Below are positions 11,874 to 15,600 of a stretch of DNA of 64,000 nucleotides, in pieces; positions within the stretch are counted from its first letter, which is position 1, and every line of letters begins with the position of its first letter. Below the pieces are notes generated by a model. That model had not been told where the DNA came from, did not search any database, and was given only the letters and a program-made list of their open reading frames with translations. This stretch comes from Brienomyrus brachyistius. Its lineage: Eukaryota; Chordata; Actinopteri; Osteoglossiformes; Mormyridae. The translations under genes were made by a program, and so were the position numbers. The stretch is taken from assembly GCF_023856365.1 (NCBI RefSeq), contig NW_026042848.1, positions 1-64,000 on the forward strand, given 5' to 3'.

Positions 11874-14800
11874 ATTGGTTCAGATAGGCGACGGACAATC
11901 TGATTGGCTCAGATAGGCGACGGACAATCTGATTGGCTCAGATAGGCGACGGACAATCTGATTGGCTCAGATAGGCGACGGACAATCTGATTGGCTCAGA
12001 TAGGCGACGGACAATCTGATTGGCTCAGATAGGCGACGGACAATCTGATTGGCTCAGATAGGCGACGGACAATCTGATTGGCTCAGATAGGCGACGGACA
12101 ATCTGATTGGCTCAGATAGGCGACGGACAATCTGATTGGCTCAGATAGGCGACGGACAATCTGATTGGCTCAGACAGGCGACGGACAATCTGATTGGCTC
12201 AGACAGGCGACGGACAATCTGATTGGCTCAGACAGGCGACGGACAATCTGATTGGCTCAGACAGGCGACGGACAATCTGATTGGCTCAGACAGGCGACGG
12301 ACAATCTGATTGGCTCAGACAGGCGACGGACAATCTGATTGGCTCAGACAGGCGACGGACAATCTGATTGGCTCAGACAGGCGACGGACAATCTGATTGG
12401 CTCAGACAGGCGACGGACAATCTGATTGGCTCAGACAGGCGACGGACAATCTGATTGGCTCAGACAGGCGACGGACAATCTGATTGGCTCAGACAGGCGA
12501 CGGACAATCTGATTGGCTCAGACAGGCGACGGACAATCTGATTGGCTCAGACAGGCGACGGACAATCTGATTGGCTCAGACAGGCGACGGACAATCTGAT
12601 TGGCTCAGACAGGCGACGGACAATCTGATTGGCTCAGACAGGCGACGGACAATCTGATTGGCTCAGACAGGCGACGGACAATCTGATTGGCTCAGACAGG
12701 CGACGGACAATCTGATTGGCTCAGACAGGCGACGGACAATCTGATTGGCTCAGACAGGCGACGGACAATCTGATTGGCTCAGACAGGCGACGGACAATCT
12801 GATTGGCTCAGACAGGCGACGGACAATCTGATTGGCTCAGACAGGCGACGGACAATCTGATTGGCTCAGACAGGCGACGGACAATCTGATTGGCTCAGAC
12901 AGGCGACGGACAATCTGATTGGCTCAGACAGGCGACGGACAATCTGATTGGCTCAGACAGGCGACGGACAATCTGATTGGCTCAGACAGGCGACGGACAA
13001 TCTGATTGGCTCAGACAGGCGACGGACAATCTGATTGGCTCAGACAGGCGACGGACAATCTGATTGGCTCAGACAGGCGACGGACAATCTGATTGGCTCA
13101 GACAGGCGACGGACAATCTGATTGGCTCAGACAGGCGACGGACAATCTGATTGGCTCAGACAGGCGACGGACAATCTGATTGGCTCAGACAGGCGACGGA
13201 CAATCTGATTGGCTCAGACAGGCGACGGACAATCTGATTGGCTCAGACAGGCGACGGACAATCTGATTGGCTCAGACAGGCGACGGACAATCTGATTGGC
13301 TCAGACAGGCGACGGACAATCTGATTGGCTCAGACAGGCGACGGACAATCTGATTGGCTCAGACAGGCGACGGACAATCTGATTGGCTCAGACAGGCGAC
13401 GGACAATCTGATTGGCTCAGACAGGCGACGGACAATCTGATTGGCTCAGACAGGCGACGGACAATCTGATTGGCTCAGACAGGCGACGGACAATCTGATT
13501 GGCTCAGACAGGCGACGGACAATCTGATTGGCTCAGACAGGCGACGGACTATCTGAGCCAATCAGATTGTCCGTCGCCTATCTGAGCCAATCAGATTGTC
13601 CGTCGCCTATCTGAGCCAATCAGATTGTCCGTCGCCTATCTGAGCCAATCAGATTGTCCGTCGCCTATCTGAGCCAATCAGATTGTCCGTCGCCTATCTG
13701 AGCCAATCAGATTGTCCGTCGCCTATCTGAGCCAATCAGATTGTCCGTCGCCTATCTGAGCCAATCAGATTGTCCGTCGCCTATCTGAGCCAATCAGATT
13801 GTCCGTCGCCTATCTGAGCCAATCAGATTGTCCGTCGCCTATCTGAGCCAATCAGATTGTCCGTCGCCTATCTGAGCCAATCAGATTGTCCGTCGCCTAT
13901 CTGAGCCAATCAGATTGTCCGTCGCCTATCTGAGCCAATCAGATTGTCCGTCGCCTATCTGAGCCAATCAGATTGTCCGTCGCCTATCTGAGCCAATCAG
14001 ATTGTCCGTCGCCTATCTGAGCCAATCAGATTGTCCGTCGCCTATCTGAGCCAATCAGATTGTCCGTCGCCTATCTGAGCCAATCAGATTGTCCGTCGCC
14101 TATCTGAGCCAATCAGATTGTCCGTCGCCTATCTGAGCCAATCAGATTGTCCGTCGCCTATCTGAGCCAATCAGATTGTCCGTCGCCTATCTGAGCCAAT
14201 CAGATTGTCCGTCGCCTATCTGAGCCAATCAGATTGTCCGTCGCCTATCTGAGCCAATCAGATTGTCCGTCGCCTATCTGAGCCAATCAGATTGTCCGTC
14301 GCCTATCTGAGCCAATCAGATTGTCCGTCGCCTATCTGAGCCAATCAGATTGTCCGTCGCCTATCTGAGCCAATCAGATTGTCCGTCGCCTATCTGAGCC
14401 AATCAGATTGTCCGTCGCCTATCTGAGCCAATCAGATTGTCCGTCGCCTATCTGAGCCAATCAGATTGTCCGTCGCCTATCTGAGCCAATCAGATTGTCC
14501 GTCGCCTATCTGAGCCAATCAGATTGTCCGTCGCCTATCTGAGCCAATCAGATTGTCCGTCGCCTATCTGAGCCAATCAGATTGTCCGTCGCCTATCTGA
14601 GCCAATCAGATTGTCCGTCGCCTATCTGAGCCAATCAGATTGTCCGTCGCCTATCTGAGCCAATCAGATTGTCCGTCGCCTATCTGAGCCAATCAGATTG
14701 TCCGTCGCCTATCTGAGCCAATCAGATTGTCCGTCGCCTATCTGAGCCAATCAGATTGTCCGTCGCCTATCTGAGCCAATCAGATTGTCCGTCGCCTATC

Positions 14801-15600
14801 TGAGCCAATCAGATTGTCCGTCGCCTATCTGAGCCAATCAGATTGTCCGTCGCCTATCTGAGCCAATCAGATTGTCCGTCGCCTATCTGAGCCAATCAGA
14901 TTGTCCGTCGCCTATCTGAGCCAATCAGATTGTCCGTCGCCTATCTGAGCCAATCAGATTGTCCGTCGCCTATCTGAGCCAATCAGATTGTCCGTCGCCT
15001 ATCTGAGCCAATCAGATTGTCCGTCGCCTATCTGAGCCAATCAGATTGTCCGTCGCCTATCTGAGCCAATCAGATTGTCCGTCGCCTATCTGAGCCAATC
15101 AGATTGTCCGTCGCCTATCTGAGCCAATCAGATTGTCCGTCGCCTATCTGAGCCAATCAGATTGTCCGTCGCCTATCTGAGCCAATCAGATTGTCCGTCG
15201 CCTATCTGAGCCAATCAGATTGTCCGTCGCCTATCTGAGCCAATCAGATTGTCCGTCGCCTATCTGAGCCAATCAGATTGTCCGTCGCCTATCTGAGCCA
15301 ATCAGATTGTCCGTCGCCTATCTGAGCCAATCAGATTGTCCGTCGCCTATCTGAGCCAATCAGATTGTCCGTCGCCTATCTGAGCCAATCAGATTGTCCG
15401 TCGCCTATCTGAGCCAATCAGATTGTCCGTCGCCTATCTGAGCCAATCAGATTGTCCGTCGCCTATCTGAGCCAATCAGATTGTCCGTCGCCTATCTGAG
15501 CCAATCAGATTGTCCGTCGCCTATCTGAGCCAATCAGATTGTCCGTCGCCTATCTGAGCCAATCAGATTGTCCGTCGCCTATCTGAACCAATCAGATTGT
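11874..15600. repeat. Giant inverted minisatellite, 29-bp unit, 57 + 70 copies
   Basis: Unit starts fall exactly every 29 bp from 11881 to 13534 (57 full units plus a 16-bp partial). At 13550 the orientation flips, and reverse-complement units run exactly every 29 bp from 13550 to 15580 (70 full units plus a partial). Each unit contains GGCGACGGAC and CAATCTGATTGGCTC. In the left arm the first ten units read CAGATAGG and the other 48 read CAGACAGG; every right-arm unit is the CAGATAGG type. The outermost unit at each end carries the same variant (GGTTCAG instead of GGCTCAG), so the ends are symmetrical. There is essentially no other variation. The block could fold into a hairpin or cruciform with arms of about 1.67 kb. 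The u2af2 coding exons start 127 bp to the right. Confidence 0.97.

Follow-up and report, generated by a model that had tools for sequence, protein, structure and literature searches.

A mirrored 29-bp minisatellite beside U2AF2 in Brienomyrus brachyistius, with a palindromic MITE as its likely source

Tandem repeats whose units all face one way until a single point, and all face the other way beyond it, raise a simple question: how did the two arms come to mirror each other? Such a block lies in the genome of the mormyrid fish Brienomyrus brachyistius, where it adjoins exon 10 of the gene for the core splicing factor U2AF2. Here, we examine the block within the 64,000-nucleotide stretch of DNA that was analysed as a whole (contig NW_026042848.1, assembly GCF_023856365.1; termed the window below). 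The window contains no N bases, and the features discussed are collected in the table.

Table. Coordinates of the array, its relatives and its neighbouring gene in the window
Feature	Position	Strand	Basis or remark
Left arm	11874..13549	+	57 full forward units and a partial unit
Right arm	13550..15599	-	70 full reversed units, partial at switch, CAGATTG at outer end
Outermost left unit, MITE-like (ATTGGTTCAG...)	11874..11902	+	score 34 against MITE arms
Outermost right unit, MITE-like	15564..15592	-	identical to outermost left unit
10-nt loop at orientation switch	13540..13549	.	folding and reading of sequence
12-bp direct repeat ACACAAAAAATT, first copy	11865..11876	+	3/2000 shuffles, 11/20000 random pairs
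12-bp direct repeat ACACAAAAAATT, second copy	15608..15619	+
MITE-type terminal repeat (TGGGAG...) at right array end	15600..15659	-	profile match and shuffle tests
Palindromic MITE copy 1 (TGGGAG...CTCCCA)	28963..29188	.	226 bp
Palindromic MITE copy 2 (TGGGAG...CTCCCA)	32581..32830	.	250 bp
U2AF2 exon 10, last exon found in window	15727..15969	-	PDB match, tblastn
U2AF2 exon 6	20713..20852	-	one C more than the Brienomyrus reading needs, shifting the frame
Read-through frame, 44 codons and TGA (15594-15592)	15592..15726	-	past exon 10 donor, across MITE end, into array edge

Architecture of the mirrored array

The repeats are resolved by TRF into two 29-bp tandem arrays at 11874-13556 and 13549-15600, with 99% matches and 0% indels. 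Together with a unit-by-unit reading, this bears out the preliminary description of 57 forward and 70 reversed full units meeting at a single orientation switch (13549/13550); neither arm contains an indel. Head-to-tail units of 29 bp in such numbers are those of a minisatellite, a class with units of roughly 10-100 bp. The block had been drawn as 11874 to 15600; its final array base is 15599, and 15600 is the start of a T-run in the flank. Its near-homogeneity is confirmed, as only three full unit types occur and neither a further substitution nor an indel is present among the 127 full units. From the outside inwards, the left arm consists of one ATTGGTTCAGATAG-type unit (GGTT-ATAG), nine ATTGGCTCAGATAG-type units (GGCT-ATAG) and 47 ATTGGCTCAGACAG-type units (GGCT-ACAG), followed by the partial unit. 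The right arm, reverse-complemented and read in the same direction, has one ATTGGTTCAGATAG-type unit (GGTT-ATAG) and 69 ATTGGCTCAGATAG-type units (GGCT-ATAG) before its partial unit, and across the switch the sequence is CTCAGACA-GGCGACGGAC-TATCTGAG.

With the arms set against each other from the switch outwards, 1617 of 1666 positions (97.06%) can pair, and 385 bp of the right arm have no partner. The block had been described as a long perfect inverted repeat; its arms are long and do pair, but they are near-perfect only, because 47 left units have C where the right arm pairs with T. Either arm was also said to be enough for a hairpin of more than 1.6 kb, and the extent of pairing between the two long arms agrees with this. 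The long inverted arms with their tandem repeats also give the block the form of a foldback element. When the central 76 nt are folded as DNA, the predicted energy is -37.9 kcal/mol against a shuffle mean of -9.0 (z -13.5).

Among the 127 units none has a substitution of its own, which suggests that the array grew or was homogenised recently. If the rate is taken as 5e-9 changes per site and generation, ~3700 bp would be expected to change once in roughly 50,000 generations, given this assumed rate and an assumed consensus accuracy. The array is taken here to be a passive, recently expanded element. No 14-mer of its unit occurs elsewhere in the 64-kb window, and the unit has 0 exact matches in IMG/VR viral contigs.

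The remainder of the window holds other repeats, open frames and genes. A second minisatellite, with 14.4 copies of a 46-bp unit (90% matches, TRF), occupies 2682-3343, and about ten copies of a 219-bp AT-rich repeat occupy 47467-49710 (TRF). A 46-50 bp piece of the latter is also found at ~10553-10600, close to an AT-rich imperfect palindrome (10585-10628; 38 of 44 positions symmetric), and directly after this palindrome a GC-rich, pyrimidine-rich block reaches the left edge of the array. By impression, the 10.6-11.86 kb block left of the array may be the end of a retroelement. A 160-aa frame on the minus strand (4521-5003) resembles by eye the end of a non-LTR retrotransposon and has no Pfam match; the frame at 1542-1994 has a stretch similar to it, and the left-flank frame at 9602-9883 gives chance-level matches only against the PDB. 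On the plus strand, three successive open frames at 56368-58465 (389, 111 and 188 aa) are perhaps a transposon gene; the first shows a C2H2-like spacing when read by eye, and Pfam returned just one match, below cut-off. A tRNA-Asp (GTC) gene lies at 25005-25078 on the minus strand, the one tRNA found by Rfam, and to the right of U2AF2 the minus strand carries exons of a CLC-7-like chloride/proton exchanger (40599-43755), of which 43351-43755 matches PDB 7bxu (E 2.4e-26). Pfam searches on 10 and 6 reading frames produced a CLC channel match and, below cut-off, one other.

Relationship of the array to a palindromic MITE

Two palindromic elements came to light when the array flanks were compared with the remainder of the window; from their sequence they are taken to be copies of one MITE family. 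Both are short and non-coding and end in terminal inverted repeats, with inverted arms that are 85-94% complementary in pieces, and the two copies share 79% mean column identity, flanks included. Their left halves fold only slightly better than shuffles (z -2.1 and -1.2), and their arms contain ATTGGTTCAGAGAGATAACCAATTAGATTG or close variants. By eye, no target-site duplication was recognised at either copy, the outer limits of the element being uncertain, and four 19-20-mers of the MITE had no match in the text of the papers searched.

A profile of the four MITE arms, built with the array excluded, matches the right array end at 15665-15560 (28.7 bits, E 6.8e-8) over both the terminal repeat and a unit. 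The right flank alone (15601-15667) aligns with the MITE end at a score reached by 0/2000 shuffles and 0/3000 window stretches, and TTTTCTTACACAAAAA in this flank equals MITE copy 1 at 29166-29181 in 16/16 bases. The inner ~30 nt of the flank (15601-15630) have no match to the MITE ends in that orientation, where 1764/2000 shuffles reach the score. At the left array end the same profile gives 14.2 bits (E 0.0022), mostly over the array, and the score of the flank alone is reached by 119/2000 shuffles and 83/3000 window stretches. A MITE end is thus found on the right side of the array and not on the left. Within the array, single stretches match the profile weakly (best E 0.035).

The units at both outer edges provide a second connection to the MITE, one missed when the block was read as a minisatellite. 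The outermost units align with the MITE arms with one 3-nt gap, at scores of 34 and 38 that are reached by 0/2000 shuffles and 0/5000 window stretches, and in these copies the array unit is homologous to MITE sequence. The inner ACAG unit has a lower score of 26 (1/2000 shuffles, 2/5000 stretches), as expected if the older form has been kept at the array edges. The 64 kb contain ATTGGTTCAG five times, namely in both outermost units and in three of the four MITE arms, with matching orientations; the fourth arm has ATTGGTTCGG in its place. The array unit corresponds to the interval between two GATTG words; this interval measures 29 bp in the array and 26 bp in every MITE arm but the fourth, which has no GATTG pair. 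The inverted minisatellite was correctly described as having two long arms that can pair, but it is not free-standing: it bears a MITE terminal repeat at its right end and MITE-like outermost units at both edges.

The array edge and the end of U2AF2

U2AF2 is encoded on the minus strand by ten exons from 24446 to 15727. Every internal boundary carries the expected GT or AG, and the nine introns measure 87-2943 bp. The gene was named from a PDB match of exon 10 and from tblastn with a human sequence; Pfam gave no match on the U2AF2 frames. A protein search returned 2743 proteins with E <0.001 among 7986 scored candidates, the best being from Brienomyrus brachyistius and 99% identical over the whole query. 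The extra C in exon 6 is either a homopolymer error or a real change. The last U2AF2 exon was not found in the 64-kb window by tblastn with the human exon, whose best match was short and unrelated (E 0.31). A very long last intron, a rearrangement of the locus at the array or a misjoined assembly would each account for this.

The reading frame of exon 10 runs on into the array, where its TGA is made by the CAGATTG stretch together with the last base of the outermost unit. The Brienomyrus U2AF2 protein P0001 ends, after VPGCGK, with 44 residues identical (44/44) to this read-through, and a search with these residues returned P0001 as the sole match (1/1 candidates). P0001 is not a plain copy of the window reading, since the two disagree where the frame of exon 6 breaks and, within the exons compared, at residues 131 and 342. 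Among the 120 matches listed, 116 have the usual last exon and four (P0001, P0032, P0076 and P0116) run past the exon 10 donor, a split obtained by manual reading of seven exceptions; the 90% cluster of P0001 has 39 members. P0001 was rejected as proof that the last exon has been lost, because read-through records exist in other animals too and because P0001 is isoform X2, which is taken to be a computed model. It lends support to the right array edge, but none to the switch or to the left arm. The array edge may supply U2AF2 with an alternative end.

Origin of the two arms and its consequences

The head-to-head arrays most likely arose in one palindromic MITE, each inverted arm of which became a tandem array, a reading that we hold with somewhat better than even confidence. 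Since the MITE is palindromic, amplification of both arms would yield mirrored arrays without any inversion, and the mirror symmetry is probably inherited from the MITE rather than made by a later inversion. The GATTG direct repeats flank one segment of the MITE arm, and a unit placed between two short direct repeats can acquire its first tandem copy by slippage or unequal exchange; this would have duplicated the segment. The derived GGCT unit is common to both arms, so that independent growth of the arms is insufficient and inter-arm exchange or copying must be added. Further duplications, together with such exchange or with the copying of one arm from the other, would have spread the GGCT unit, removing the MITE middle and leaving the outermost units unchanged, an order of events that we infer. 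The observations behind this reading are the two arrays, two MITE relatives in the window, the MITE-like edges and the right terminal repeat. Counted against it are the missing left MITE end, the fourth arm without a GATTG pair, the shared GGCT unit, the loss of the MITE middle (nothing of which is left at the orientation switch), the lack of a target-site duplication by eye and the unmatched inner 30 nt of the right flank. On balance, the block is likely to be a foldback form of the MITE, amplified in both arms.

The absence of a MITE end on the left leaves room for a rearrangement or an assembly join. In the latter case, two MITE-derived arrays, one forward and one reversed, would come from different places and have been fused because their units are alike, and the switch or the left edge would not be real; we consider this rather unlikely, though it is the foremost competitor. 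A join would fit the left edge without a MITE end, the 47 inner left-arm units that are unlike every right-arm unit, and the failure to find the last U2AF2 exon in the 11.9 kb left of the array, given that the nine known introns span 87-2943 bp. The additional C in exon 6 suggests indel errors, and an assembly error is suspected at another Brienomyrus brachyistius gene in the account given in PMC12188244. A join is opposed by the outermost units of the two arms, which are identical and MITE-like, by the 12-bp direct repeat present at both edges, by the window being without N and by the two inverted arms themselves, which are the prediction of a palindromic MITE. The preliminary description had also named a fold-back read artefact. 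Its simple form does not fit the array: the outer flanks differ, and in the left arm 47 units have a variant that no right-arm unit shows.

A fold-back may instead have occurred during copying of the array, an origin that seems unlikely, and slightly more so than a join. A one-directional MITE-derived array would have broken, its end folded on CAGAT/ATCTG, a short inverted repeat within the unit itself, and the array been copied in reverse, and the product joined to unrelated DNA; the mirror would then be secondary and the left edge a rearrangement breakpoint. This would account for the derived unit common to both arms and for the absence of the left MITE end and of the last exon. At the centre of the array, a hairpin closes on a loop of 10 nt, one base off a fold-back at CAGAT/ATCTG, but this loop is weak evidence because wherever two such arrays meet, the loop will be shorter than a unit. 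Moreover, the left outermost unit stops exactly at the expected limit of a MITE-like arm, and a later block change is needed to explain the 47 ACAG units of the left arm. A bolder version, which we regard as improbable, is that of a MITE-born fish foldback element at a break in U2AF2, in which fold-back copying cut the gene from its last exon, a MITE-coded tail ends in the outermost unit and the transcript forms a hairpin of more than 1.6 kb.

It is similarly improbable that the two arrays entered together as one foldback-type element, with ACACAAAAAATT at 11865-11876 and 15608-15619 as a 12-bp target-site duplication. The shuffle and random-pair counts for this repeat favour such an insertion, but at 12 bp it is longer than the 8-10 bp reported for the Drosophila virilis foldback transposon Tetris in PMC4079207, and the ends adjoining its two copies do not form an inverted pair. 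The right copy sits within the MITE-end match, so the repeat may be MITE sequence; it is therefore not called a target-site duplication, and such a duplication as the whole explanation was set aside once the right flank proved MITE-like.

Least of all do we expect that the array is kept for a function, such as a cluster of putative NF-Y (CCAAT) sites or a source of dsRNA: AGCCAATCAG occurs 70 times on the plus and 58 times on the minus strand of the window, nearly all in the array and with a flank that NF-Y prefers, but its number follows from amplification, since the box is already present in the MITE arms. The boxes also lie 24 bp apart edge to edge, against a 31-bp peak in PMC4982600, which describes tandem CCAAT boxes bound by NF-Y.

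The reading of a MITE amplified in both arms can be set beside several known systems. Foldback (FB) elements of Drosophila melanogaster have long inverted arms made of short tandem repeats, as does the array here. Unlike FB elements, the array has no demonstrated transposase link and no second copy in the one window examined. FB elements are named in PMC4079207, which also describes Tetris, whose inverted terminal repeats contain tandem repeats with a unit that stems in part from the outer portion of the repeat, as here. Tetris shares its ends with the MITE DAIBAM, a parallel to the MITE link at this locus, and its arrays reach up to 66 unit copies (PMC4079207). It differs from the array in its unit of ~220 bp, against 29 bp, in its flanking and middle domains, of which there are none at the switch, and in its 8-10 bp target-site duplications, none being established here (PMC4079207); the array, unlike Tetris, is a single copy within the 64-kb window.

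Among vertebrates, the Xenopus MITEs Xstir and miDNA4 have tandem arrays, and in miDNA4 short direct repeats (5 bp or more) are the proposed cause of changes in copy number (PMC12628747). Their tandem repeats come from a MITE or lie within one, as those of the array probably do. In contrast to Xstir and miDNA4 as described in PMC12628747, each inverted arm here is an array of the one unit, the two running in opposite directions, and the outer edges are MITE-like. The Angel MITE of zebrafish is likewise a fish MITE whose single strands fold back, though in its description there it shows no array growth, unlike the array here (PMC12628747). A vertebrate foldback element or mirrored minisatellite with both arms expanded was not found among the papers listed from the open-licence PMC literature. 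One of three 11-12-mers of the repeat occurs in the text of 16 papers, none of them evidently on the array repeat, as judged by title.

The paired arms could have consequences for the DNA and for transcripts. A hairpin or cruciform is possible in the DNA at the array, as is a hairpin in any transcript that crosses it, and the fragile site or source of dsRNA suggested in the preliminary description is possible as well. If the amplification of both MITE arms is true, the locus would show step by step that no inversion is needed to form a long near-perfect inverted repeat, which can result when both arms of a palindromic element are amplified. Its steps would be legible in the unit types, from the MITE-like edges through the derived inner unit to a second derived block in one arm, and foldback elements and MITE-borne arrays would be two outcomes of one process. 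In Brienomyrus brachyistius, this process would have placed a structure that may be unstable immediately after U2AF2 exon 10, and a database protein, P0001, would have an end coded by the element.
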